Assembly (NCBI GenBank): GCA_013152535.1
Contig: JAADGE010000028.1
Span: 1-54,858, forward strand
DNA: 54,858 bases
DNA from: Chlorobiota bacterium
GTDB taxonomy: Bacteria; Bacteroidota; Bacteroidia; Bacteroidales; JAADGE01
Reading direction: 5' to 3'
Below are positions 5,723-54,342 of this stretch, piece after piece. A program made the position numbers and the translations under genes. A model generated the notes under the pieces. It was not told where the DNA came from and did not search any database. It saw only the letters and a program-made list of their open reading frames with translations. Position 1 is the first letter of the stretch, and each line of letters begins with the position of its first letter.

Positions 5723-5986
5723 CCTTTAAAATGAAAGGCTTACATTGATTTGTGGGTCTTTTTTGTTTTTCATTTGCATACAAAGATTTATTGTTATTTC
5801 TCTTTTTGTACTGATTTTCTTGTTAAATCATAAAATGCGAAAATAAAAAATATTGGAATTTTGTAGTTTGTAAAAGACAAAATGCTTCATATAAAGGAAT
5901 AAAACATTTGCCTTTGAGATTATTTTTTACTGATTTCGTATAATTTCCTGTTAGAAATTCAAATTTTCGGGTTTCATTAACAGAAA

Positions 5987-6080
5987 TTAAAAAGCCTCTG
6001 CCGAAGCAGAGGCATAGTTCTTTTGAACTTCGGCATATAGCCTTATTGTGATAAGATACAAAAGGAATTTGTGTTCTTAT
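5987..6080 (-). ncRNA. tracrRNA of the type II-C system
   Basis: Read on the minus strand, this short transcript has every part of a II-C tracrRNA. The anti-repeat (6045-6067) pairs with the first 24 nt of the array repeat. CACAAU pairs with GUUGUG, a 4x4 internal loop follows, then AUC/GAU, one bulged A, and UUCCUUUUGU with ACAAAAGGAA. Next comes the AAUAAGGC nexus with the mini-hairpin GGC-UAUAU-GCC (6032-6042), close to the ACAAUAAGGC of Neisseria tracrRNA. Then follow the stem-loop AGUUC-AAAA-GAACU (about 6016-6029) and a terminator stem GCCTCTGC-TTCG-GCAGAGGC (5994-6013) ending in TTTTT. It is divergent from cas9. The 5' end is inferred from the promoter at 6086-6116. Confidence 0.9.
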
Positions 6081-6085
6081 GTTTA

Positions 6086-6116
6086 TAAAATTACATAATT
6101 TTTTATACTTTTCAAA
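6086..6116 (-). promoter_or_regulatory. Promoter of the tracrRNA
   Basis: On the minus strand TTTG (6113-6116) is followed after exactly 19 bases by TAATTTTA (6086-6093), a 7/8 match to the Bacteroidota TAnnTTTG box at the expected -33/-7 spacing. It predicts a start near 6080, about 13 nt before the anti-repeat. The same stretch read rightward has TTTA-N20-TACTTTTC (6082-6113), a weaker candidate for the cas9 promoter, so the two promoters may overlap back to back. Confidence 0.6.
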
Positions 6117-6139: not shown

Positions 6140-9100
6140 ATGGCAAAAATACTCGGTTTAGATTTAGGAACAAATTCTATCGGTTGGGCAGTTGTTGATG
6201 ATGAAAAAAAACAAATACTCGGAACAGGAATTAGAATATTTCCCGAAGGTGTAGTTGCGAAAACAATCGGAACAGGTGACAGAGAAGTTTCAAAAAATGC
6301 TGCACGAAGAGAAAGCAGACAATCTCGAAGAGGTTTTTACAGACACCGTTTAAGAAGAATTAAACTGTTAGAAACATTGATTGAATTTAAAATGTGCCCT
6401 TTGACCGGTAAAGAGTTAAAACAATGGAAACAGTACGATAAGAAAAAAGGACAAGCCGGGAAGACTTTTCCGAGTTCAGAGGAATTTAACAAATGGCTGA
6501 AATTAAATCCTTATAAATTAAGAGCAAAAGCATTAAACAACGATATAAGTCTTTTTGAATTAGGCAGAATTTTTTATCATCTTATACAAAGGCGCGGTTT
6601 TTTAAGTAACCGAAAAGGGAATGAAGAAGGTAAAATATTTTCAGGTAAAGATAATATGACCGGTATTGATGAAACCAATAAACAGATTAAAGATAAAACA
6701 CTTGGCACATATCTGAATTCTGTTATCCCGAAAGAATATGAACCATATAAAAATATAATTGACAAAAACGGAAAAGAATTACGTGCCAGAGGCAGATATA
6801 CGTTAAGAGATATGTATGTTGATGAATTTGAGAAAATTTGGCAAAGGCAATCGAAACAACTCGGGCTTAATTCTATACAAAAAGAGGTAAAAAAAGAAAG
6901 TATTATATCCGGTTCAATCTATAATAAACGAAACAAGCACAGAATTAAAAATTTACAAAAAAGCAAAGGCAAAGAAAATGTTGAAATAAAAGGCAATATA
7001 CTGACAATAAAAGAACATATTCACTTAAAAGAATATCTCGCCGGTAAAATTTATTACGATGATGAGGGGAATTTAAAACATAAAAGTCAGGACAGTGTCT
7101 TATTTTATCAACGACCGCTGCGTTCACAAAAAGGATTACTTGCAAAATGCAGTTTGGAAGGCAGAAAGTTTTATGACAAAAAAGATAAACGTTGGCGAAC
7201 AGCAGGTCCGACACCGTGTCCGTTGTCGCATCCTGAATTTGAAGAATTCAGAGCTTTACAGTTTATAAACAATATTGAATACGGAATCAAAAAGAGACTT
7301 GATGAAAATCAAAGATTGATTTTGTTGAATTTATTTAACAGAAAAGATACAAATTTTGATTTTAAGCTAATCCCGAAAGAATTAAAACTAACTTATGAAA
7401 CATTTAACTATGCAGATGATTTAAAAGCACCGGGAAATTATACAAATGCCAAACTCAGTAAACTTTTCAATCCCGATATTTGGGAAAAGCACAAAGAGAA
7501 TATCTGGCATTGTTTTTATTTTTATTCTGATAATGATAAACTTATTAATAAACTAAAAACAGATTTTGGTTTAGAAGAAAAAAACGAAGAAAAAGCAGCA
7601 AAAATTAAGTTAAAAGACGATTATGCAAATGTATCATTAAAAGCTATCAGGAATATTACACCTTTCTTGAAAAAAGGATATAAATTAAGTGATGCAGTTT
7701 TGCTTGGAGGTGTTCGTAATGCTTTTAAAACAACTGATACAGAAAACAAACCCTATGACAGGTGGGAGAATTTTAACAACGAACATGAAAAAATTGAAAA
7801 AGATATTATACGTATAAATAAAGATAAGAAAAACAAAGAGGGCGATGCAGTAAAAAAAATAAAGGAGTATTTACATAACAATTGCGGTTTTGAAAAAGAC
7901 GATAAAAACTTTAAAAAACTGTATCATCACAGCCAAGAAATTGAACAAAAAAAGATACAAGACAAACTTGATAAAATTGAAAATTTAAGAAATCCGATTG
8001 TTCAGCAAGGCTTAAATGAACTTCGCAGACTTGTAAATACCTTGATTGATGAACACGGTAAATTTGACAAAATAAAAGTTGAACTCGGAAGAAACCTGAA
8101 AATGGGTAAGAAACAACGTCAAGAAACTGAATTTAAAATAAGAGATAATAATAAGAAAAATGAAGAGGCAAGAGAGAAACTTTCCGAATACGGTTTAGCC
8201 CATTCAAGAGAAAATATTCAAAAATATTTATTGTGGAAAGAAATTGAAGATCGAAGCGGAACGGCAAAATGTCCTTATACCGGAAAAACTATAAACATCA
8301 GTGATTTACTCGGTAAAGAAAACAAATTTCAAATTGAACATATTTTTCCGAGAAGCACATCACTTGATGACAGTTTTGCAAATAAAACATTTTGCGATGC
8401 AAAATTTAACGGATTGAAAGGAAATAAAACGCCTTATAATTTTTATAAAAAAAACAACGATGCAAAACTCTGGGGCGGTGCAAAGTCATGGGATGAAATA
8501 AAACAAAGAGCATTTAAACTTTTACCGTACAAAAAAGCAAAGCGTTTTACTGCTGAAAAAGTTGATGAAAAAGCAGGAGGTTTTATTGAAAGACAATTGA
8601 ATGATACACGCTACATGAGTAAAAAGGCAAAAGAAATACTTTCACAAATTTGCCCGAAAGACAACATAAGAGTTATGCCCGGTAGTGTAACATCTGAATT
8701 AAGACATCTCTGGGGATTGAATAATATTTTACAACCTGTTGAGATATTAGACTTTAAAGAGGCAAAAATTAATATTGATAAACTCGAAAAGCATTGGGTA
8801 GTTTTTGATGAAAAAGGGGAAGTTTTAAGTTTTTATCCTATACATAATGAAAAACCGAATTTAAAACCGAATGAAATTACAATTTCAGGTTATTTGAATA
8901 ATAAAGGTGAATTTTCTTCAAAATATATTGCCTTAAAATCAGTATATGAAGAATTAAAAGGTGATAATTTTAAAGGAGAATATTGGAAAAAATTAAAATT
9001 ATCAAATAAACCGTTACAAACTGTTAAGATTTTTACGGATAAACCTGCTGTAGATGATGATGAAATTGTTTTAAGAGGAAAAGTTGCAAAAAAATATTTT

Positions 9101-10780
9101 GAAAACGATACAATCGGAAAGAAAATTAAAACAAATTTTGAAGACGGCTATTATTGGGCAAAATTTAAGGTAAATAATGTTAAATTTGAAAAACCTATAC
9201 CGAAAAAACAACCCAAAAAGAAGTCGGGGCAAATTTTATTATACGGAACTGTTGAAGATGCAATTTTTAAATCATATATTTTTGAATGTCAAACAGGAGA
9301 GGCTGACGGCAACTATTGGGCAATAATTGATTTAGATTTCGACACTGTTGATTTTTCTAATACAATGAACCCAAAGCCTGAAACTGATGATAATAAAATT
9401 CTGATACAAGGCAGCATAAACGAAACCGGTTTGTTTTCCTCTGATATTGATAATAAGCATAATTTTGAAACAACTTTACCTCAAGGAAAATATTGGACTA
9501 TTTTTGAAATTGAAGGAGAAGATGCAAAACTTTATCCTCAAATAAATCTTGAACCGAAATTGCAGGATAAACAAAAAGTTGTTGAAGGAACTGTTTGGAT
9601 AGATAAATATACGGGTGAAATAAAATTTGACCCGAAAAAGAACAGAGATGATCATCGACACCATGCAATTGATGCAATAACTATTGCACTTACGGAACAA
9701 TCTTATTTGCAAAAATTAAGCACATATAATGCACAATTAGATGAAAAAAGAAGAGGCAAAGCGAAAAAACCGACTTTTGAAATGCCTTGGGACAATTTCT
9801 ATAACGATGCAAAAAAAGCAGCTTCCGAAATGCTGATTTCGCATAAAGCAAATAATAAGGTCTTAACAAAAATTAATAAAGTAATTCATAAAAATGGAAG
9901 AACATATACAAGTAAAGGCTATGCTGCCGGAGGGCAATTACATAAAGAAAACGTTTACGGGAAACGCCAAACTCCCGGTAGTAAAAAACCGTATTATCAT
10001 ATCCGTAAATCGGTAGAAAGCTTAACTACCGATAAACAAATTGATAAAATAGTTGACGGAAAAATAAGAGCAATTATCCTACATGGAAAAGCACAAGAAA
10101 AAAGAATAAAAAAAGAAATTGATGAATTAAACAAACAGTTTAAAAAAGCAAAAACAGATTTTGAAAAAGCAGAAATTCAAAAGCAAATAAAACAAAAACA
10201 ACAAGACATAAAAATGTTATTTTCTTTGCCGAATAAAAATGGAGAACGGGTTCCGATAAAAAAAGTGAGGGTAAAAGAAAATCTCGGTAATATGATGCAA
10301 CTGAAAGATAAAAAGGTGTTTGCAGAAAAGAAAGGCAAAGAAGTTGAGCTAAACCAATATGTTAACCCGCGAAATAACCACCATGTTGCCATATATAAAA
10401 ATACGGAAGGGGAATTATTTGAAAAAGTCGTTACATTTTGGGAAGCCGTAGAGCGTAAAAAAGAAGGATTATCCGTTATTGATAAAAACCCGACAGAAGG
10501 CAGTGTATTTGTTACATCTTTAGAAATTAACGATATGTTTTTATTAGGGATAAATGAAGACAATATTAATTGGGAAAATCCGAATTATTCAGATTTAACA
10601 AAATACATTTACAGAGTACAAAAAGTATCATCAAGTTATTATACGTTCAGACATCATCTTGCGTCAAAACTTGATAATTCAAAGCAAGAAATTAGTTTGC
10701 AAAGTTTTAAAGCATGGCAGGAAGTAAACCCGATTAAAGTGAATATTGATATACTCGGCAGAATATCAAAAGTTGATTGA
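6140..10780 (+). CDS. cas9: CRISPR-associated endonuclease Cas9, type II-C, with a five-unit repeat insertion
   Basis: RNA-guided DNA endonuclease. RuvC-I is ILGLDLGTNSIGWAVV with Asp8. The arginine-rich bridge helix is NAARRESRQSRRGFYRHRLR. RuvC-II is KIKVELGRN with Glu648. The HNH motif QIEHIFPRS has His734 and is followed by NGLKGNKTPY. RuvC-III is HRHHAIDA with His1175 and Asp1178. All catalytic residues are present, so it should be active. At 1546 residues it is long even for Bacteroidota II-C Cas9. Between LRHLWGLN (around Trp858) and RuvC-III lie about 290 extra residues made of five tandem units. Their G-x-Y-W cores have Trp886, 949, 1006, 1060 and 1119, and each core is followed by an I-x-hydrophobic-x-G strand. 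The remaining C-terminal region (about 1200-1546) is the WED/PAM-interacting part. The tracrRNA gene is divergent upstream, and the array lies downstream beyond a transposase. Confidence 0.97.
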   Translation: MAKILGLDLGTNSIGWAVVDDEKKQILGTGIRIFPEGVVAKTIGTGDREVSKNAARRESRQSRRGFYRHRLRRIKLLETLIEFKMCPLTGKELKQWKQYDKKKGQAGKTFPSSEEFNKWLKLNPYKLRAKALNNDISLFELGRIFYHLIQRRGFLSNRKGNEEGKIFSGKDNMTGIDETNKQIKDKTLGTYLNSVIPKEYEPYKNIIDKNGKELRARGRYTLRDMYVDEFEKIWQRQSKQLGLNSIQKEVKKESIISGSIYNKRNKHRIKNLQKSKGKENVEIKGNILTIKEHIHLKEYLAGKIYYDDEGNLKHKSQDSVLFYQRPLRSQKGLLAKCSLEGRKFYDKKDKRWRTAGPTPCPLSHPEFEEFRALQFINNIEYGIKKRLDENQRLILLNLFNRKDTNFDFKLIPKELKLTYETFNYADDLKAPGNYTNAKLSKLFNPDIWEKHKENIWHCFYFYSDNDKLINKLKTDFGLEEKNEEKAAKIKLKDDYANVSLKAIRNITPFLKKGYKLSDAVLLGGVRNAFKTTDTENKPYDRWENFNNEHEKIEKDIIRINKDKKNKEGDAVKKIKEYLHNNCGFEKDDKNFKKLYHHSQEIEQKKIQDKLDKIENLRNPIVQQGLNELRRLVNTLIDEHGKFDKIKVELGRNLKMGKKQRQETEFKIRDNNKKNEEAREKLSEYGLAHSRENIQKYLLWKEIEDRSGTAKCPYTGKTINISDLLGKENKFQIEHIFPRSTSLDDSFANKTFCDAKFNGLKGNKTPYNFYKKNNDAKLWGGAKSWDEIKQRAFKLLPYKKAKRFTAEKVDEKAGGFIERQLNDTRYMSKKAKEILSQICPKDNIRVMPGSVTSELRHLWGLNNILQPVEILDFKEAKINIDKLEKHWVVFDEKGEVLSFYPIHNEKPNLKPNEITISGYLNNKGEFSSKYIALKSVYEELKGDNFKGEYWKKLKLSNKPLQTVKIFTDKPAVDDDEIVLRGKVAKKYFENDTIGKKIKTNFEDGYYWAKFKVNNVKFEKPIPKKQPKKKSGQILLYGTVEDAIFKSYIFECQTGEADGNYWAIIDLDFDTVDFSNTMNPKPETDDNKILIQGSINETGLFSSDIDNKHNFETTLPQGKYWTIFEIEGEDAKLYPQINLEPKLQDKQKVVEGTVWIDKYTGEIKFDPKKNRDDHRHHAIDAITIALTEQSYLQKLSTYNAQLDEKRRGKAKKPTFEMPWDNFYNDAKKAASEMLISHKANNKVLTKINKVIHKNGRTYTSKGYAAGGQLHKENVYGKRQTPGSKKPYYHIRKSVESLTTDKQIDKIVDGKIRAIILHGKAQEKRIKKEIDELNKQFKKAKTDFEKAEIQKQIKQKQQDIKMLFSLPNKNGERVPIKKVRVKENLGNMMQLKDKKVFAEKKGKEVELNQYVNPRNNHHVAIYKNTEGELFEKVVTFWEAVERKKEGLSVIDKNPTEGSVFVTSLEINDMFLLGINEDNINWENPNYSDLTKYIYRVQKVSSSYYTFRHHLASKLDNSKQEISLQSFKAWQEVNPIKVNIDILGRISKVD

Positions 10781-10795
10781 TTCCGGAATGAATCT

Positions 10796-10828
10796 ATCCC
10801 TGTCAGGGTTAACAACCATGACAGGGAT
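10796..10828. repeat. REP-like palindrome, copy 1 (between cas9 and the RAYT gene)
   Basis: A 33-nt palindrome with 15-nt arms (ATCCCTGTCAGGGTT and its complement, one mismatch) and a 3-nt loop. The pairing extends two more bases on each side. It begins 15 bases after the cas9 stop and could also act as its transcription end. It shares length and sequence with the copies at 11099 and 11526. Confidence 0.8.
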
Positions 10829-10864
10829 AGACGGTTGTTTGTAATAATGAAATAAGTAAAAAAG

Positions 10865-11503
10865 ATGTCTCAAAAGATTATACCCATAGAGTACGATAAA
10901 TTTTATCATATATATAATCAAGCCGTAAGCAGAGAAAACCTTTTTCGTGAAAAAGCAAATTATGAATATTTTTTGAAACAATATGATAAATATATAGAAC
11001 CGATTGCTGAAACTTTTGCTTGGTGTTTAATGCCGAATCATTTTCATATATTGGTGAGAATAAAAGAAGAAAATGAAATTGATAGAATGAATTTGCCTAT
11101 CACTGTCAGGGTTGTCAACCCTGACAGTGATTATTCAAATATTAAAATAAAGCAGCCGTCAAAGTATTTTTCAGATTTATTTAATTCATATACGCAGGCA
11201 TATAACAAGAAATATAATCGAAGCGGAACTTTATTTAAACGTCCTTTCAGAAGAATATGGGTTGATAATGAAAAATATTATAAGAATTTAGTAATTTATA
11301 TTCACAATAACCCCGTGCATCACGGGTTTATGGAAAGTATTATTGAGTATCCTTGGACATCTTACCTTACCGTATGTTCTGAAAGACCGACAAAATTATT
11401 AAGAAAAGAAGTTTTGAATTGGTTTGGTGATATTGATAATTTTGTATTTTTACATAAAAATGAAGATAATAATAACGGAATTGAAAAGTATCTTATTGAC
11501 TGA
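10865..11503 (+). mobile_element. REP-associated tyrosine transposase (RAYT, Y1/IS200-like family) CDS
   Basis: Single-strand DNA transposase of the HUH/Y1 family, the enzyme thought to mobilise REP palindromes. In 212 residues the N-terminal YHIYNQAVSRENLF is typical of RAYTs. The HUH metal-binding motif appears as MPNHFHILV around residue 60. The catalytic tyrosine is expected in the helix FNSYTQAYNKKY, followed by GTLFKRPFRR. It is flanked by 33-nt palindromes at 10796 and 11526 and has a third in frame inside its own coding sequence (residues 79-89). No target duplication or IS ends are evident. It is a single-copy, domesticated-type gene rather than an insertion sequence. Its position splits cas9 from the array, and no link to CRISPR function is shown by sequence. 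Confidence 0.88.
11099..11131. repeat. REP-like palindrome, copy 2, inside the RAYT coding sequence
   Basis: Perfect 15-bp arms (ATCACTGTCAGGGTT and its complement) around the loop GTC. The 33 nt are exactly 11 codons in frame and encode ITVRVVNPDSD, so the reading frame survives. It lies in the segment after the HUH motif, away from the catalytic motifs. Confidence 0.85.
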
Positions 11504-11525: not shown

Positions 11526-11558
11526 ATCCCTGTCAGGGTTTCAAACCCTGACAGGGAT
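11526..11558. repeat. REP-like palindrome, copy 3 (downstream of RAYT)
   Basis: Perfect palindrome of 16-nt arms (ATCCCTGTCAGGGTTT and complement) around one C, 33 nt in all. It starts 23 bases after the RAYT stop codon. With copy 1 it brackets the transposase gene, the usual REP/RAYT arrangement. It may also terminate transcription of the transposase gene. Confidence 0.85.
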
Positions 11559-11576
11559 AAAAAATAAAAGATGTTT

Positions 11577-11721: not shown

Positions 11722-13471
11722 GTTGTGGTTTGATAACAAAAGGAAAAGGGATATATTTTTGCATTCATAAAAGGATATAAACCTGCAGTTGTGGTTTGAT
11801 AACAAAAGGAAAAGGGATATATTTAAATCTTACAATAATGTATTACATTTGTTGTTGTGGTTTGATAACAAAAGGAAAAGGGATATATTAGACATGCAGT
11901 CAGACAGTTGGCTTTCAAGTTGTGGTTTGATAACAAAAGGAAAAGGGATATATTCCGTTGAAGTTTCATCTGTTCACGATACACGTTGTGGTTTGATAAC
12001 AAAAGGAAAAGGGATATATTGAATAGAAAAATTACTCAAATGGTTGTTAAGTTGTGGTTTGATAACAAAAGGAAAAGGGATATATTGTATTTTTCACGTG
12101 GTTGGGTCAATGGTCAGTTGTGGTTTGATAACAAAAGGAAAAGGGATATATTATATAGTTATAGATACTATTACATCTTTAGGTTGTGGTTTGATAACAA
12201 AAGGAAAAGGGATATATTAGTTTAATGTTTATGAATAATCTTGACATAGTTGTGGTTTGATAACAAAAGGAAAAGGGATATATTTGCCACCCATTAGTAT
12301 CTTCTTCTCTGTTTGTTGTGGTTTGATAACAAAAGGAAAAGGGATATATTAAAACGTGTTCCTGTTATCCGCCCGCAGCGTTGTGGTTTGATAACAAAAG
12401 GAAAAGGGATATATTTATATTTTGCTTGATAATGTTCAATATACAGTTGTGGTTTGATAACAAAAGGAAAAGGGATATATTAAAGAATTGATATATTTAT
12501 CAATCCTTTTAGTTGTGGTTTGATAACAAAAGGAAAAGGGATATATTTAAATCAATAAATTATCCGGCTAAAATCAAGTTGTGGTTTGATAACAAAAGGA
12601 AAAGGGATATATTGGCAGTTCAACGGTCATGCTAAAAAATGGAGTTGTGGTTTGATAACAAAAGGAAAAGGGATATATTAAACGTGCCGCCCTTCAATTT
12701 GGAGTAGGTGTTGTGGTTTGATAACAAAAGGAAAAGGGATATATTTTTGGTTCTTTAATTGTATCACAGTCTGCTGTTGTGGTTTGATAACAAAAGGAAA
12801 AGGGATATATTTGTGCCTTAGAAATATAAGAAGAAAATAAAGTTGTGGTTTGATAACAAAAGGAAAAGGGATATATTAACTGCATTAACAGTACCTGTAC
12901 TATTACTGTTGTGGTTTGATAACAAAAGGAAAAGGGATATATTAAAAAACAAGCAAACAACAACGGAACCGGAGTTGTGGTTTGATAACAAAAGGAAAAG
13001 GGATATATTTCTATTTACAAGATATTTTCCAATTTCCTTGTTGTGGTTTGATAACAAAAGGAAAAGGGATATATTTTTTTCTTTTTCTTTCCATCGCCTT
13101 TTCGTGTTGTGGTTTGATAACAAAAGGAAAAGGGATATATTTCTTCATAATTTAGAATGTCATATGTTTTAGTTGTGGTTTGATAACAAAAGGAAAAGGG
13201 ATATATTGTTTCCTGAAATAAATTACACGGAAAGATTGTTGTGGTTTGATAACAAAAGGAAAAGGGATATATTATAAATTAAATTGTCCATTCGTCATCT
13301 TCAGTTGTGGTTTGATAACAAAAGGAAAAGGGATATATTCATCTTTAACTGTGTATAAATCTCTCCTTGGTTGTGGTTTGATAACAAAAGGAAAAGGGAT
13401 ATATTAACCTGCTACAATCTTATCGGGAGTGTACGGTTGTGGTTTGATAACAAAAGGAAAAGGGATATATT
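11722..13471 (+). CRISPR. CRISPR array, type II-C: 27 identical 36-nt repeats, 26 spacers
   Basis: Repeats of 36 nt beginning GTTGTGGTTTGATAAC and ending GGGATATATT recur every 66 bp (two intervals are 65 bp, at the third and tenth spacers). The first starts at 11722 and the last at 13436, and all copies look identical. All 26 spacers (24 of 30 nt, two of 29 nt) differ. The strand is set by the GTTGTG start shared with Bacteroides II-C repeats and by pairing of the first 24 nt with the tracrRNA. Inside each repeat TTTG (positions 8-11) and TATATT (31-36) are 19 nt apart, a Bacteroidota promoter. Transcription would then start a few nt into each spacer, leaving a guide of about 22-25 nt. The degenerate repeat on the left suggests the older end is there, with new spacers possibly added at the cas2-cas1 side. 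Confidence 0.98.
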
Positions 13472-13650: not shown

Positions 13651-13989
13651 TTAAAAAATTTCCAGTTGCATCGGGGCGTTTTCGAGCGGAATCTCTTTTT
13701 TGCCCCAAAAATTTACAATATTTCCGTATTGCTTGTCGGTAACCGGTAAAATATTGATATGCCCTAATTCGGGTATGCCTTTTTCAACTCGTTTTATATG
13801 AACGTTCATACTTTCGCGACTTGCACAATGGCGTACATAAACAGAATATTGCATCATTGAAAATCCGTCGTCAAGCAGGGATTTGCGAAATTTGGAAGCT
13901 CGGCGTCTTTCTTTTTTTGTTGTAGTCGGTAAATCAAAAAATACAAATAACCACATAATTCTATAGGCATTTAGTCTGGTTTGATGCAT
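13651..13989 (-). CDS. cas2: CRISPR-associated endoribonuclease/adaptation protein Cas2
   Basis: Small dimeric ferredoxin-fold protein that bridges two Cas1 dimers in the spacer-integration complex. The 112 residues show the Cas2 start strand YRIMWLFVFFDLPTTTKKERR with the conserved Asp, then FRKSLLDDGFSMMQYSVYVRHC, and the C-terminal half INILPVTDKQYGNIVNFWG, as in type II Cas2 proteins. It follows cas1 by six bases on the same strand, so the two are cotranscribed leftward, convergent with the array. Confidence 0.96.
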   Translation of the reverse strand: MHQTRLNAYRIMWLFVFFDLPTTTKKERRRASKFRKSLLDDGFSMMQYSVYVRHCASRESMNVHIKRVEKGIPELGHINILPVTDKQYGNIVNFWGKKEIPLENAPMQLEIF

Positions 13990-13995
13990 TGTAAT

Positions 13996-14883
13996 TTATT
14001 TAAACACAGGATAAGCAATATTTTTAGTTTCTCCTTTATAACATTTTACCAAAGATGCCGTTGTCATACTTAATCCTACAGATAATGGTCGAGTAACTTT
14101 CTTAAATCGGGTATCCGTTGTAAGAACATTCATTAAATCAAATTTTATTTCTTTTGTTAAGTCTTTATAATCGGGAAATTTTGCAAAAGTTTCTTTTACA
14201 ATCCTGTCGGCAAAAGGGCGGTAAGGTTCCATAATATCATCAGCTAAACGGTAAGCATTATATTTATTTCTGTGATGAATGCCCAATGCAGGCAGCAGTC
14301 CTGAACCTACAATGGATTTTGCCGTTGCAGAACGTAATATCGTATAACAGAAATTCAGCATTGAATTCGGTTGTTTGCCGTCTTTGTGCCGGATAAAATT
14401 ATTGAACAATTGATTCCAATAAATACGTGCTGCATACGATTCTCTGTTTGTAGTATCTCCGCTTTTTACATGTTTGGATATTTCTCTTAAAGCGTTTCCG
14501 TTTTTCTTAAAATAATCTAAAGCAGCTGCTTGATTTTGTATTTTTGCCTTTATGGTTTGCTGCCACAGGTTTTTTTTCAGAGGTTCGCTTGCTTTTAATT
14601 GAGCATCTGCATGTTGTCCGTGTAAATGATGCGATTCAAAGTTAATCATCATAGAAGTCGGCATGTGCTTGTCATTGCAGAAAATAACGGCAGTATTATT
14701 TTTGGAAAATAATTGCATAACCGAATGGGTGTATGTAATTTGCTTATTATCAAAGATAATGTAACCAATGTCTTCGGCAGCTATCATTCTTTCTTTATCA
14801 ATTATTTTGTCTTTTACATATAGCTGTTTGTTTTTAACAAAAAGGTGGTAGGGGTTTACGAAAAAAAGAGTTCTTTTCAGCAT
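13996..14883 (-). CDS. cas1: CRISPR-associated integrase Cas1 (type II)
   Basis: Metal-dependent integrase that inserts new spacers. The 295 residues match subtype II Cas1: N-terminal MLKRTLFFVNPYHLFVKNKQLYVKD beta domain (key residues NPYHL), AAEDIGYIIFDNKQITYTHS, a helical domain containing YAARIYWNQLF with the metal-ligand region, GSGLLPALGIHHRNKYNAY with the catalytic His, and LADDIMEPYRPFADRIV with conserved Asp/Glu. Full length. With cas2 and cas9 but no csn2 or cas4, this assigns the locus to II-C. The 256 bases upstream show no gene. Confidence 0.97.
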   Translation of the reverse strand: MLKRTLFFVNPYHLFVKNKQLYVKDKIIDKERMIAAEDIGYIIFDNKQITYTHSVMQLFSKNNTAVIFCNDKHMPTSMMINFESHHLHGQHADAQLKASEPLKKNLWQQTIKAKIQNQAAALDYFKKNGNALREISKHVKSGDTTNRESYAARIYWNQLFNNFIRHKDGKQPNSMLNFCYTILRSATAKSIVGSGLLPALGIHHRNKYNAYRLADDIMEPYRPFADRIVKETFAKFPDYKDLTKEIKFDLMNVLTTDTRFKKVTRPLSVGLSMTTASLVKCYKGETKNIAYPVFK

Positions 14884-32955: not shown

Positions 32956-35900
32956 CTATAACTTTATTCCGATTAATAAAATATCATCAATTTGCTCAGT
33001 TTTACCCATCCATTTATGAAGGATTTTTTCTGATACTTCTTTTTGTTCACTCATAGGTAAATGATGAATATGTATAAGCATTTCTCTGAAACGTCTTGTA
33101 TTAAATTTTTTTTGTTTTATACCGCCGAATTGGTCCGCATAGCCATCTGAAAACAAATACAAGCAATCGTTTGGTTTTAAACTGACATATTTATTTTTAA
33201 ACGGAATGTGATTTAATTTTTTATTACTGCCGACGGGCATTCTGTCAGCTTCTAATTTTGCTAATTTTTCATTTCTGATAATATATGCAGGGTTATTAGC
33301 ACCGGCAAAGTTTAATTGCATATTTTTTTTGTCTATAACAGCCAAAGACATATCCATTCCGTCTTTTCGCTCTTCTTCACCATGTGCACTAAGTGCCGTT
33401 ATTATCTTTTTTCTGAGTAAAGTTAATACATCGGCAGCTTTTATTTCTTTCTCGGTTTTACCGGATTCTTTTACAATTTCATTTAAAAAAGAAATCCCCA
33501 GCATACTTAAAAAACCTCCCGGAACTCCATGTCCGGTGCAATCAACTGCTGCAATAAAGAGTTTATTTTTAGATTCGCTTATCCAATAAAAGTCGCCGCT
33601 GACAATATCTCGGGGTTTAAAAAGTATGAACAACTCTGCTAAATATTTTGAATAAATACCGATATCTGAAAGTGCGGCTTTTTGAATTTTTCCTGCATAT
33701 CTTATACTTCCGGTTATTTCTTTATTTTGATAATCTATTTTTTGATATTGTTCGTAAATTTCTATGTTTTGGTTTTGAATTAATTTGCTTTGTTTTTCAA
33801 TTTCAGCAGTTCTTTCTTTTACTTTAAGTTCTAATATTTCGTTATACTCTTTAATCTTCCTTTGTTTTTTTCTGTAAAATGCAGATATTATTAATGAAAC
33901 AAGAATTAAAAAAGTTGTAAAAACACTGATAATAAACCATGTTCTTTTCCAAATAGGAGGTTTTATTTCAATAATAATTTTAATGGTTTGACTTTTCTCA
34001 TTCAGGGAATTGAGAGCATACATTGACAAAATATGTTTGCCGGGAGTAAGTTCCGGTATTGTAAGAAACTGTTTACCGGTTTCGGAATATTCATTATTAT
34101 TCGAAATATCAATTCCGTAAAAGTAGCTTGCAAAATCTTTTTTCAAATAGCCGGGTGCCGAGAGAAAAATATTAATATTTTTATAGTTACTATTTAGCTT
34201 TAAATAGTATGTTACGGGAAAAGAATTTCCGCTAAAGTCCTTAATAGATGTTATATATAATTTAAAACGGGTTCTTTCTGAAGTAATTTTATTCCCGATT
34301 TTATAGATTTCATTATTACCTGAAATCAGCCAAATATCATTTTTATCATCAATTGTAATATTTTTTACATTATCAAAAATCCAAGCATATTTAAGTTGAT
34401 TTAAAGAATCTCTGATATTTCCTTTATAAAGAATATGACTTCCCGAATTAATAGTAAAGCTGCTGTCGCTCAGCATATATATTTGGTTATTGTCATTTAA
34501 AATATTTGTTAATTTTTTGTTTTCAAGTATGTTATTGTATTTATTATCATAATAATATGCTCCGGATTTTGTTAAAAAGAAAAATTTGTTTTTTTCTTTT
34601 GTGATAATTATTTTTTCATCATCATCTGCGTTAATATTAAATTGTTCAGTTGATAAAATATCGGTTTCGGGTATTCGGAATAAATATATTTTATTGTTTC
34701 CGGTTGCCCATACAGTTGAATCATTTACTGTAAGAAGAGATTTGATTTTAATTTTAGAAATGCTTTTTGAGCTTACTGTTTTCGGATGAAATTGATTGTG
34801 TGAAAATTTTATTTTATAGAGACCCTTTGATGTGCTGACAAAAAAAGTATTAATGTCGTTATTACAACTTAAAGTATAAATGTAAACTTCCGGTATGACA
34901 ACTGTTAATTTATTATTTTTAATGTAATATAAGCCGGAGTTTGCACCGATTAAAATTCCGTTGTTATATTCCGTAATTGTTTTGCACTTACTGTTTATTC
35001 CGTCAATTTTTTTATAAAAATATTTTACGGAATGTAATTCATATATTTTTTTGTATTCCGTTATTGTTTTATAGCCTTTTTTATAAAAATATTTGTTTTT
35101 ATTTTTTATTTTATCAGAAACAGTATTTTTTTCGGAATCGTCAGAAATATTTTTTGTTTCTGTTCTTTTTTTCTCCCGTCTTTTTTTCCAGCGTTTAAAA
35201 AAACTTGAATTATAATCGGATTCTTTATCGCCTTCTTTTATTTGTGTTTCTGAATTATTATCCGAAATATTCTCAGAATGTGAATTATTTTGTGATACGT
35301 TTATTTTTTTTAAATATTTAACACGCTTATTTTCTGCAATTTCTACTTCTTCATAACTTTTAAGTTCTGATAATTTAAATAAGCCTTCTCCGGTAGCAAC
35401 ATATAAAGTACTGTCATAAAATTTTACGGCATTAATATTTCCTTGCAAGCCGGGGAAACGACTGAAATTTTTAACAGGAATATCAAATGCAACTCTGCTT
35501 ATGCCGTATTCATGAGCCAACCAAAGTCCTCCGGTTTGATCGGCTGCAAAAGCATAAATTTCGTCATCAGGAAGACCTGTTATATAATTTAAAGTATTTA
35601 ATGTTGTTCCTGTTTTTTTATCCAAAATAACAGCACCGCCGTTTATACTCGTAACAACAAGTTGATTTTTATTAAAATTTCCGCCTCCGTTTATTATACT
35701 TTCTTCAAGATATTCTGAAGAATTATTTTCAAAAGAACTGTAATTTGTTCCGTCAAAAATATATAAACGGCTGTTTGATAATCCGATAATTAAATTTTTT
35801 TCATACGGTACATTAAAAATAATTTTAGAAAATGAAAAAAGAGAGTCTGTTATAATACTTGTTAATTTATTATTTGTAAGAGTTTGTAAACCTTCATTCA

Positions 35901-36513
35901 AAAAATTTATATAAAGTTTATTGTTAAAAACAAAAATCCCTGTTATTGATTTATTCTTGTTATTAAAAATTTTTTCAAGTTGTTTAGTTTTTAAATCATA
36001 TTTATATATAATATCATATCCCGAAAAAATAACTTCATTATTTGTAACAATTATATTATTATAGGATTGTAATTCGCGACTTTTTTTTGTAAGTGAATGA
36101 TAGATGTAATTTCCTGTATTATTTTTTGAAATAATTCCGAAACCTTTTTTACAGGCAACATAAAAACGATTATATTTTTTGTCTTTTTTTATTTCAACGG
36201 GTAAATCAGGAATTTTTAAATACTTTTCTGTTGCACCGTCAAAAAAAGTAACGCCCGAATTATCTGCAAATACCATTACTCCGATACTGTCGGAACAAAT
36301 TGATTTAATCCTTTTTTGTTTTGCTAAGGTAAAATTGGTAATATAAGGGTAACCTTCCGGAAGTTTATTTAAAGATGTGTCCTTTTTAATTTTTTCATCT
36401 GTATTTGAAACTCTGATTTTTTGATTAACGGTATTGATGCTTTTATACAACAATCCCGAAAAAATAAAAAAACTTGATAAAATTAAAAGGGTATAGAAAA
36501 TGAAATGTTTCAT
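32956..36513 (-). CDS. Propeller sensor with SpoIIE/PP2C serine phosphatase output
   Basis: A large signalling protein of 1185 residues. An N-terminal anchor (FIFYTLLILSSFFIFSGLL) precedes an extracytoplasmic beta-propeller (residues about 50-730, with repeats such as GGLWLAHEYGISRV and NDIWLISGNN), a Y_Y_Y-type domain (about 750-840), a second membrane helix (TWFIISVFTTFLILVSLII, about 850-872), a coiled coil, and a cytoplasmic SpoIIE phosphatase with GDFYWISE, AAVDCTGHGVPGGFLSMLG, LYLFSDGYADQFGG and DDILLIGIKL holding the metal-binding Asp residues. An unusual Lys/Asp/Ser-rich stretch (about 405-510) interrupts the propeller. A role in partner-switching control of an anti-sigma system is inferred. 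Confidence 0.85.
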   Translation of the reverse strand: MKHFIFYTLLILSSFFIFSGLLYKSINTVNQKIRVSNTDEKIKKDTSLNKLPEGYPYITNFTLAKQKRIKSICSDSIGVMVFADNSGVTFFDGATEKYLKIPDLPVEIKKDKKYNRFYVACKKGFGIISKNNTGNYIYHSLTKKSRELQSYNNIIVTNNEVIFSGYDIIYKYDLKTKQLEKIFNNKNKSITGIFVFNNKLYINFLNEGLQTLTNNKLTSIITDSLFSFSKIIFNVPYEKNLIIGLSNSRLYIFDGTNYSSFENNSSEYLEESIINGGGNFNKNQLVVTSINGGAVILDKKTGTTLNTLNYITGLPDDEIYAFAADQTGGLWLAHEYGISRVAFDIPVKNFSRFPGLQGNINAVKFYDSTLYVATGEGLFKLSELKSYEEVEIAENKRVKYLKKINVSQNNSHSENISDNNSETQIKEGDKESDYNSSFFKRWKKRREKKRTETKNISDDSEKNTVSDKIKNKNKYFYKKGYKTITEYKKIYELHSVKYFYKKIDGINSKCKTITEYNNGILIGANSGLYYIKNNKLTVVIPEVYIYTLSCNNDINTFFVSTSKGLYKIKFSHNQFHPKTVSSKSISKIKIKSLLTVNDSTVWATGNNKIYLFRIPETDILSTEQFNINADDDEKIIITKEKNKFFFLTKSGAYYYDNKYNNILENKKLTNILNDNNQIYMLSDSSFTINSGSHILYKGNIRDSLNQLKYAWIFDNVKNITIDDKNDIWLISGNNEIYKIGNKITSERTRFKLYITSIKDFSGNSFPVTYYLKLNSNYKNINIFLSAPGYLKKDFASYFYGIDISNNNEYSETGKQFLTIPELTPGKHILSMYALNSLNEKSQTIKIIIEIKPPIWKRTWFIISVFTTFLILVSLIISAFYRKKQRKIKEYNEILELKVKERTAEIEKQSKLIQNQNIEIYEQYQKIDYQNKEITGSIRYAGKIQKAALSDIGIYSKYLAELFILFKPRDIVSGDFYWISESKNKLFIAAVDCTGHGVPGGFLSMLGISFLNEIVKESGKTEKEIKAADVLTLLRKKIITALSAHGEEERKDGMDMSLAVIDKKNMQLNFAGANNPAYIIRNEKLAKLEADRMPVGSNKKLNHIPFKNKYVSLKPNDCLYLFSDGYADQFGGIKQKKFNTRRFREMLIHIHHLPMSEQKEVSEKILHKWMGKTEQIDDILLIGIKL

Positions 36514-50805: not shown

Positions 50806-53800
50806 TTAGTATTCCATTTCAGCCAAACGTTTGTAATAATTGAAACGCCATTTTGCATTTTTCTCCGCAGCATCAAATAATTCATCGGCATGGTCGGGGA
50901 ATAATTTATACAATGAATTAAATCTGACTTCTCCGAGTAAAAATTCTTTAAATAATTCATATTTCGGAGATTTAGAATCTAATGTAAACGGATTTTTACC
51001 TTCTGCTTCCAATTGCGGATTAAAACGGTATAAATTCCAATATCCCGATTCTACAGCCAGTTTTTCTTCTTCTTGAACTTTATCCATCCCGGCTCTTAAA
51101 CCGTGAGCGATACAAGGAGAATAAGCAATGATTAATGAAGGTCCGGGATATGCTTCAGCTTCTTTAATTGCCTTAAAAGTTTGAGATTGGCTTGCACCCA
51201 TCGAAATTTGAGCAACATAGATATAACCGTAAGTCATTGAAATGGCTCCGAGGTCTTTTTTGCGAATTTTTTTACCCGAAGCAGCAAATTTTGCAATCGC
51301 TGCAGTAGGTGTTGCTTTCGATGATTGACCTCCCGTGTTTGAATAAACTTCTGTATCTAAAACTAAAACATTTACGTTCTCACCGGATGCTAATACGTGA
51401 TCAAGACCTCCGTAACCAATGTCGTATGCCCATCCGTCACCGCCGATAATCCACATGGATTGATTGACGAGGTATTTTTTTAAACCGAGAATGTCTTTTA
51501 CACAATCACATTTTTCTTTTTCTAAAGCTTCAATAACTTTCGGAGCAACGGTTTTAGATTCCTGTGATTTGTCTTTTACCGAAATCCATTCTTCAAATGC
51601 AGCTTTCGTTTCGGGTGCAATACCTTTTTCAATAGCGGCATTCATCATATTGGTAATAATTTCTCTTTGTTTTTTATTGGCAAGAGCTATTCCAAAACCG
51701 AACTCGGCATTGTCTTCAAACAATGAATTTGCCCATGCAGGACCTTCTCCTATGTTATTCGTAGTATAAGGTGTTGCAGGTGCAGAAGCTCCGTAAATTG
51801 ATGAGCATCCCGTGGCATTTGCAATAGTCATAGAATCACCGTAAAGTTGAGTTACTAACTTTATATAAGGAGTTTCTCCGCAACCGGCACAAGCTCCTGA
51901 GAATTCAAACAGGGGTTGAGCAAATTGTGAATTTTTTATTGTTTTTTCTTTTTCAACAATCGTGTCTTTGTATCCTACTTTATGATGCAGATAATTCCAT
52001 TTAATATCTTCTGCACGTTGTTCATCGTCAAGAGCAACCATAACCAAAGATTTTTCTTTTGAAGGACAAACATCAACGCAAGAACCGCAACCGGTACAAT
52101 CAAGTGTACTTACTTGAATTCTGTAATTATATTCTTTTGTTTTTCCGATACCTTTAATAAAGTTTGTTCCTTCCGGAGCATTTTTTACTTCTTCGTCATC
52201 AGCGAGGAACGGACGGATACAAGCATGCGGACAAACATAAGCACATTGGTTACATTGGATACAGTTTTCTGCAATCCATTTCGGAACTTCTGTTGCAACA
52301 CCTCGTTTTTCATATTGTGCTGTTCCTGCGGGCATTGTTCCGTCTTCAATACCTTTAAAAACACTTACGGGAAGTTCATCGCCTTTCAGTGCATTTATCG
52401 GATCCATAATATTTTTAATGTAATCAGGAACATCGTCGCCTCTTTCAATTCCGTATTTTGCTTCTCCTTTCAAAGATTTCCATTCCGAAGGAACTTCAAT
52501 TTTTGTAATTGCATTGCCGCCTTGGTCAACAGCTTCGTAATTCATATTTACGATTTTATCGCCTTTTTTGCCGTATGTTTTTTTAATGGCAGTTTTCATT
52601 TGTTCAACGGCGAAATCGAAAGGTATTACTTCCGAAACTTTAAAGAATGCTGATTGCATAATCGTATTTGTTCTGTTTCCCAATCCGATTTCGTGTGCAA
52701 TTTTTGTAGCATTAATAATATAAAAATTAATATTCTTTTCTGCTAATACCTTTTTATAACTATCAGGTAGTCTGTCTTTTGTGTCTTCAACACTCCAAGT
52801 ACTGTTTAATAAGAACGAACCGCCTTCTTTTATACCTTCAAGCATATCATATTTATGCAAATAAGCCGGATTTGAGCAAGCTACAAAATCAGGTTGTTTT
52901 ACAAGATAAGTTGAACGAATAATATTGTCTCCGAAACGCAGATGCGAAATTGTGATACCGCCTGATTTTTTTGAATCATAGGCAAAATATCCCTGTACAT
53001 ATTTATCGGTAGAATCTCCTATAATTTTAATAGAATTTTTATTTGCACCGACAGTTCCGTCAGCACCTAATCCGTAGAATTTTCCTTCAAATGTTCCTTT
53101 ATGTACTGTACTGATTTCAGGTAAAATAGGAAGGTTTGAGAATTTAATATCATCAACAATCCCCACTGTAAATTGATTTTTAGGCTCATTTCTTTCCATA
53201 TTTTCATAAACGGAAATCATCATTGCCGGAGTTGTATCTTTGGAACTTAAACCGTAACGTCCGCCTACAATTTCAGGGGCATTTTTATCATCTTTAAATA
53301 ATTCAACAACATCAAGATAAAGAGGCTCTCCGTTTGCACCGGGTTCTTTTGTTCTGTCGAGAACAGTAATTTTTTTAACTGATTCAGGTAATGCATTCAT
53401 AAAGTATTTAGCTGAGAATGGTCTGTATAAATGAACAACCATAATTCCGACTTTTTTACCTTGTGCATTCAAATGCTCAACAACTTCTTTTATTGTTTGA
53501 GTTACCGAACCCATTGCAATAATAATATGTTCTGCATCCTCAGCTCCGAAATAATTAAAAGGAGCATAAGGTCTTCCTGTAATACGTGTAATTTCTTTCA
53601 TATAATCGGCTACGACATCGGCAATCGGGTCGTAAAAAATACTTGATGCTTCACGTGCCTGGAAGAAAATGTCAGGATTTTGAGCAGATCCTCTTGTTAC
53701 GGGGGCAGTTGAGGTTAAAGCATTATCCCTGAATTTTTGCAGAGCTTCCGTATCTATTAATTTTCTTAATTCATCTTCATTAGGAAGTTCAACTTTTGAA

Positions 53801-54342
53801 ATTTCGTGAGATGTTCTGAAACCGTCAAAAAAATGAACAAAAGGAATTCGGGTTTTTATAGCAGCAAGATGTGCAATAGGAGCAATATCCATAATTTGTT
53901 GTGCACTTCCTGTTGCAAGTAATGCAAAACCGGTTTGTCTTACAGCCATAACATCACTGTGGTCTCCGAAAATTGACAGTGCTTGAGCTGCAATACTTCT
54001 CGCAGCTACATGAAAAACAGCAGGTAATAATTCACCGGCAATTTTATACATGTTAGGAATCATTAAAAGTAAACCTTGAGATGCCGTAAAGGTAGAAGTT
54101 AAAGCACCGCCTTGTAAAGCTCCGTGAACTGCTCCTGATGCACCGCCTTCCGATTGCATTTCGGTTACGGAAACTGTTTGTCCGAATAAATTTTTTCTGC
54201 CGTGAGCTGACCATGTATCTACATATTCCGCCATATCAGATGACGGAGTAATAGGGTATATAGCAGCTACTTCGCTGAATAAATATGCAACATGAGCTGC
54301 TGCGTGATTACCTTCACAGGTAATGAATTTTTTTTCTGCCAT
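50806..54342 (-). CDS. nifJ: Pyruvate:ferredoxin (flavodoxin) oxidoreductase
   Basis: Single-chain PFOR that converts pyruvate and CoA to acetyl-CoA and CO2, passing electrons to ferredoxin; central in anaerobic metabolism. 1178 residues with the standard domain order: pyrimidine-binding domain I ([20 protein letters not shown] and [14 protein letters not shown]), domain II, the CoA-binding region, gamma domain ([20 protein letters not shown] near 415), a ferredoxin-like domain with two [4Fe-4S] motifs ([15 protein letters not shown] near 692 and [13 protein letters not shown] near 750), and the TPP domain with [13 protein letters not shown] (Cys cluster ligands) and [20 protein letters not shown] near 968. 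Full length. A -7 box TAAATTTG lies upstream. Confidence 0.98.
   Translation of the reverse strand: [1178 protein letters not shown]

Follow-up and report, generated by a model that had tools for sequence, protein, structure and literature searches.

Why should an otherwise complete Cas9 carry some 300 additional residues inside its RuvC nuclease? The question is raised by a locus on contig JAADGE010000028.1 of the Chlorobiota bacterium assembly GCA_013152535.1. The stretch analysed, positions 1 to 54,858 of that contig, is referred to as the window.

A tandem-repeat domain in a type II-C Cas9

The cas9 gene (6140..10780, + strand) is an open reading frame of 1546 codons for amino acids, and its product matches the Cas9 profile TIGR01865 with 522 bits (cut-off 100). 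D8, E648, H734, N757, H1174/H1175, and D1178 of the RuvC and HNH nucleases are all kept, as a first-pass annotation of the window had stated; we presume their catalytic roles by homology. The RuvC-III motif HHAIDA is situated at 9659..9676 (+ strand). A CRISPR array (11722..13471, + strand) with a 36-nt repeat and a period of 65-66 nt contains 27 exact repeats, or 28 copies if counted by a shorter word. It is followed by cas2 (13651..13989, - strand; TIGR01573, 71 bits, cut-off 24.5) and a type II cas1 (13996..14883, - strand; TIGR03639, 272 bits, cut-off 120). A candidate tracrRNA with approximate ends (5985..6090, - strand) is recognised by its anti-repeat and a terminator-like hairpin, and its duplex with the CRISPR repeat amounts to -22.5 kcal/mol; it ranks about fourth in a scan by segments, the better-ranked sites being inside cas9 and beside the array. 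By the tests made, the enzyme belongs to type II-C, an assignment that rests on the Cas9 profile, the catalytic residues, the type II cas1, and cas2. Two large open reading frames are also present on the - strand of the window, at 32956-36513 (1185 aa) and 50806-54342 (1178 aa).

The first-pass annotation had described an extra segment of five tandem units of about 58 residues between W858 and H1174. The translation places LRHLWGLN, which includes W858, at residue 854 and HHAIDA at 1174, and the W858-to-H1174 link spans 315 residues. The insert proper comprises residues 866-1165 (8735..9634, + strand), about 300 residues, where the sister enzymes L115-L117 read “..ILN”, about four residues, and then “K-x-R-x-DHRHHA”. 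Unit profiles and a unit HMM delimit unit 1 (8780..8968), unit 2 (8969..9139), unit 3 (9140..9301), unit 4 (9302..9478), and unit 5 (9479..9634), all on the + strand; the units are homologous and about 52-63 aa long each, and unit 5 runs directly into the RuvC-III motif. The core tryptophans are W886, W949, W1006, W1060, and W1119, at the intervals of 63, 57, 54, and 59 given earlier. The G-x-Y-W pattern proposed for the cores needs a small correction at unit 1, which reads K-H-W in the window; the relative L082 has GKYW at this position.

Aligned locally with itself, the segment 865-1167 reaches a best score of 160, compared with a maximum of 69 in 60 shuffles, and the internal similarity is therefore not a matter of chance. 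Comparison of unit profiles by hhalign (34 sequences, alignment A2) gave probabilities of 94.0-98.3% for 10 of 10 unit pairs, against a maximum of 1.93% over 40 control comparisons of units with other Cas9 segments. The unit HMM finds five domains in the window insert and in each of the 32 members of the tree set; it was trained on the same family, and this figure is thus a count rather than an independent test. These comparisons confirm that the insert is an added tandem-repeat domain in an otherwise complete Cas9. We also note a second extra segment of 48 residues in the REC lobe (residues 240-287, window 6857-7000), which is missing in the zero-unit sisters and in L082.

The insert unit is predicted to be all-beta, about 58 residues long, and matches no known family. 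AlphaFold2 models the insert with its flanks as an all-beta repeat array (mean pLDDT 84.9, pTM 0.65), and a 946-residue C-terminal model has the same strand pattern (mean pLDDT 77.8, pTM 0.53), in line with the beta-rich accessory module that had been proposed. The best PDB matches of the C-terminal model are Cas9s, with isolated HNH domains superposed at 2.7-5.0 Å; superposition of the whole chain is poor (TMq at most 0.30). Members of alignment A2 have a good family match to RuvC_III only, and no family in Pfam or NCBIfam matches the insert above cut-off. Among sequences of solved structures, no chain carrying the insert was found, nor any convincing relative of it beyond its RuvC-III end. 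Foldseek returned 333 PDB matches for the insert, none at E ≤ 0.001, in a search that may overlook one small unit within a long chain; 407 matches in BFVD likewise included none at E ≤ 0.001.

Two arrangements suggested by five beta units of about 58 residues are not supported by the fold searches: an OB array, with no significant match, and a beta-propeller, with no match at E ≤ 0.001 among the best 50 of the 333 (PDB) and 407 (BFVD). Weak family matches of the insert (TT1_Tal, selB, Por_Secre_tail, and others, at E 0.0025 or worse) and weak PDB sequence matches (superoxide dismutase, E 0.0042; phage tail-associated lysin gp59, E 0.039) are taken as chance. Tail proteins do recur among these, as TT1_Tal, gp59, and low-probability tail proteins in the PDB and BFVD searches, and offer a possible lead.

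Distribution and number of units among relatives

Scanning of a named genome collection with the insert alignment recovered 35 loci, of which 33 cover nearly the full span of the query and two are cut by contig ends; a first scan of genome contigs with the whole protein as query gave no match. Judged by the labels of their records, the insert-bearing taxa are mostly Bacteroidota (many MAGs, three Flavobacterium, Bizionia, Gelidibacter, Halpernia, and Odoribacter); also among them are Pontiella and two MAGs, one labelled Caldisericaceae and the other Chlorobiota. The insert is present in 5 of 21 genomes of a family-level sample. At order level (295 genomes, 79 with any match) eight whole inserts were found, together with a divergent insert in G1014 and a truncated one in G812, at class level (395 genomes, 52 matched) one, and at phylum level (395 genomes) two whole inserts. 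These sampled frequencies indicate that the insert does not occur in most Bacteroidota Cas9s. A partial match in G053 (E 8e-4, first phylum search) was rejected because the protein is devoid of Cas9 motifs. Searches of phage and plasmid collections by tblastn, and a pattern scan of viral contigs, gave no instance of the insert.

Links between the tryptophan and the HH motif measure 18-75 residues in 62 ordinary Cas9s. The short links expected of other Bacteroidota were seen throughout: 18-56 residues in 34 of 34, 44-75 in a further 16 of 16, and 18-50 in another 12 of 12. The insert-bearing link is 306-321 residues long in all 32 members of the tree set. L166 has a link of 335 residues with very divergent units, recognised as four weak HMM domains (best E 0.0034). 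The five-unit array thus marks a minority lineage of Cas9, mainly in Bacteroidota. Two genomes related to these loci deserve mention. G004 encodes two Cas9s (L046 and L047), a five-unit form and an ordinary enzyme whose link measures 44 residues; in the close relative G009 (L003/L048), an in-frame TGA interrupts the insert-bearing cas9, which lies on a short contig, through decay or assembly error.

The main tree contains 57 rows with the link columns removed and with L050, L056, L064, L083, and L084 left out as incomplete; L166 is classed in the trees with the insert-bearing forms because of its link length and is excluded from the unit profiles, and L183, identical to L078, is not independent. 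The 32 insert Cas9s and the zero-unit L115-L117 form one group in this tree (SH-aLRT 100). The sisters are 1122-1154 aa long and share 45-50% identity with the window protein over aligned residues. The insert label requires one change on the tree, and the branch separating five-unit from zero-unit forms has an SH-aLRT of only 27. Two further trees are chosen subsets of 53 and 40 rows, with L126 in neither and L222 absent from the smaller.

Three relatives, L165 (link 77), L164 (link 109), and L216 (link 78), have an apparent single unit joined directly to RuvC-III, at the site that unit 5 occupies in the window Cas9. A profile of the three sequences matches the all-unit profile at 90.3%, compared with 0.11% for a profile of 48 ordinary links; against single unit profiles it reaches 26-77%, with unit 5 not favoured. 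The ordinary links were cut from the alignment with those below 30 or above 74 residues excluded, and at least one genome is included twice. With the all-unit HMM, L164 (13.0 bits) and L216 (8.1) score above 500 of 500 shuffles and above all 48 ordinary links (best 3.1); L165 is weak at 3.9 bits, a score reached by 8 of 500 shuffles. With a unit-4 HMM, none of the three candidates scores as high as the ordinary link L105 (7.0 bits).

Unit states of zero, one, and five appear to exist, the one-unit state by modest evidence, and no form with 2-4 units was seen among the relatives examined. In the 40-row tree, the one-unit forms occur in two places, L164 with L216 and L165 elsewhere; the three states need three changes, and the five-unit branch has a support of 8. 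Multiplication of a one-unit ancestor to five units, with losses, fits this pattern; separate gains of units are also possible. The first-pass annotation had suggested that the first copy grew from a native loop at RuvC-III. The three relatives with an apparent unit joined to that motif speak for this origin; one of them is weak alone, their units show no particular resemblance to unit 5, and the change may have run in either direction.

The apparent one-unit L216 (G039) and the ordinary L224 (G381) have near-identical Cas1s (tree branches of 0.04-0.05) and share an almost unchanged CRISPR repeat, but their Cas9 types differ. This looks like an exchange of cas9 in place.

What the arm may do

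The zero-unit system L226 has 40 exact copies of a 36-nt CRISPR repeat that is also found in the five-unit systems L059 (87 copies), L060 (45), and L061 (21). Over the stretches that align, its Cas9 shares 36-50% identity with the L059 and L061 enzymes, and the phylum search gave no match to the insert in its genome, G222. Reading of that repeat therefore does not seem to need the insert, and a role of the insert in CRISPR-repeat recognition is unlikely.

The insert might instead serve as a docking platform for the Cas1-Cas2 acquisition machinery, and the loci are often complete: of 34 insert loci surveyed, 23 have cas1 and 21 have cas2, several of the others being cut by contig ends. For a Cas1 tree, the protein was recovered from 25 of 35 insert loci and 45 of 57 others. 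The Cas1 of zero-unit L115 groups with those of six insert loci (L059-L062, L065, L075; SH-aLRT 100), and those of zero-unit L116/L117 group with that of L051 (SH-aLRT 96); the tree shows six changes between zero- and five-unit labels, compared with a shuffled mean of 21. Since the Cas1s of zero- and five-unit systems intermix, a Cas1-specific docking role is unlikely, and we give the acquisition platform as a whole only a slim chance.

A separate partner protein is not apparent in the surroundings. Gene clusters found in at least three insert loci comprise cas1, cas2, a Y1 transposase, two sets of array-derived ORFs, a 218-aa family (four loci), and an ATPase-like family (three). No partner gene is common to most of the 34 loci, many of which are cut by contig ends, and inspection of the neighbour clusters recognised no PIN-domain partner. 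The family of about 218 aa, of unassigned kind, is located 0.3-0.6 kb downstream of cas9 at L054, L068, L069, and L074 (4 of 34 insert loci). Directly downstream of cas9 in the window is a gene resembling a REP-associated Y1 transposase (10865-11503; NCBIfam score below cut-off), with palindromes on each side of it (10796-10829 and 11526-11559) and one within (11099-11132). Of the 34 insert loci, 11 have a homologue about 1.3 kb or less downstream of cas9, and one is also present in 5 of 25 non-insert stretches, though the window genome has only five matches to the gene. A literature search returned no paper with both “REP-associated tyrosine transposase” and “Cas9”.

The charge of the insert bears on whether it touches nucleic acid. 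The net charge is negative in 28 of 32 members, zero in two, and positive in two; per 100 residues, the mean is -2.2 for the insert and +4.0 for the rest of Cas9. Unit 4 carries a net negative charge in every one of the 32 members; the means for units 2 and 3 are +2.6 and +2.5. The net acidity argues against simple gripping of nucleic acid, and a local basic face on units 2 and 3 could still exist. An extension of small barrel-like beta domains that takes hold of flanking DNA or of the displaced non-target strand, and so stabilises the R-loop, would be consistent with those two basic units, with the position of the insert next to RuvC-III, and with faint OB-type signals (CcmE at E ≤ 0.1 for 5 of 34 members, with a best value of 0.046; GlcV by Foldseek at probability 0.30, E 0.34). 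We nevertheless hold it to be unlikely in view of the overall acidity, the lack of a significant fold match in PDB and BFVD, and the zero-unit relative on the same CRISPR repeat. Nucleic-acid contact, one of the roles that the first-pass annotation held possible, thus finds no support as the default reading.

Mean pairwise identity is 0.33-0.47 for the units, 0.57-0.69 for RuvC-I, RuvC-II, HNH, and RuvC-III, and 0.48 for WED/PI; units 1, 2, and 4 (0.33-0.40) are the least conserved of twelve segments measured. For the one close pair compared, namely the window gene and a G004 copy of 85% identity, dN/dS amounts to 0.13 over the insert and 0.10 elsewhere. The faster change of the units relative to the nuclease core would be expected if the arm were a shield that covers HNH/RuvC surfaces used by phage inhibitors, or that stabilises the enzyme, but the low insert dN/dS of that pair speaks against it, and we regard such a shield as quite improbable. 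The poor conservation of units 1, 2, and 4, together with sisters that have no insert, could also reflect passive, near-neutral repeat expansion with no role; with five units in every countable member and a dN/dS of 0.13, this reading is very unlikely.

We tentatively prefer a regulatory or protein-docking arm on the RuvC/non-target-strand side. The array occupies the loop just before the catalytic HHAIDA motif of RuvC-III. Counting back from the shared HH motif, a mapping of our own, the end of the insert corresponds to what we take to be K974/R976 of SpCas9. Mutation of K974/R976 affected non-target-strand cleavage only, according to PMC5680257. This placement and this effect together favour an arm on the RuvC/non-target-strand side. 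The sequence of events probably began with one unit joined to RuvC-III, as the three relatives seem to show, and continued with duplication to a fixed number of five. The folded acidic arm would project from the RuvC side, along the path of the non-target strand, where it may dock a protein or act as a regulator, tuning the handling of the non-target strand or the activation of Cas9; it would take no part in CRISPR-repeat recognition. Several points count against the docking or regulatory arm: units 2 and 3 are mildly basic and may touch nucleic acid locally, no partner gene recurs at most of the insert loci, many of them cut by contig ends, the branch between five- and zero-unit forms is weak (27, 8), the evidence for one-unit forms is modest, and forms with 2-4 units are unseen.

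Comparison with known Cas9 systems

Few enzymes have been studied as much as Cas9. This repeat domain is present in named species of Flavobacterium, Bizionia, and other genera. The F. branchiophilum Cas9 may, we presume, already figure in older ortholog lists. The enzyme itself belongs to a known kind, the type II-C Cas9s, by the tests made; a repeat domain of about 300 residues inside RuvC was not found described in the literature searched, subscription papers and preprints being outside its scope. There is no mention of such an insert in the consulted parts of a paper on the F. psychrophilum Cas9 (PMC10309648), a Cas9 catalogue (PMC7606464), and a CRISPR classification paper (PMC12669027). 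The insert could, with some reserve, represent a previously undescribed class of Cas9 domain, in which one beta unit at the junction with RuvC-III gave rise to an acidic arm of five units, fixed in number, that recruits a partner or governs how the non-target strand is cleaved, an accessory module within Cas9 itself instead of a separate protein. The existence of zero-, apparently one-, and five-unit relatives, with a zero-unit enzyme on the same repeat, allows the role of the arm to be tested directly. Should the arm gate cleavage, it would be a natural control module for Cas9.

Small beta domains of the OB-fold/TOBE-like kind resemble the insert in their short beta units and in the weak hints described above, and differ in that there is no significant match. 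The type II-C systems of NmeCas9 and CbCas9 are like that of the window in Cas9 profile, HNH and split RuvC, cas1/cas2, and a tracrRNA-like RNA. The PcrIIC1-associated CbCas9 is the best PDB sequence match to the whole window protein. Its partner PcrIIC1 binds a C-terminal helix of Cas9 (PMC13153721). The systems differ in the link between the same two motifs: the Neisseria link is short, as had been expected, at about 12 residues in NmeCas9 (6kc8, from alignments) rather than the ten first quoted, and that of CbCas9 is about 57, in contrast to 315 residues in the window Cas9.
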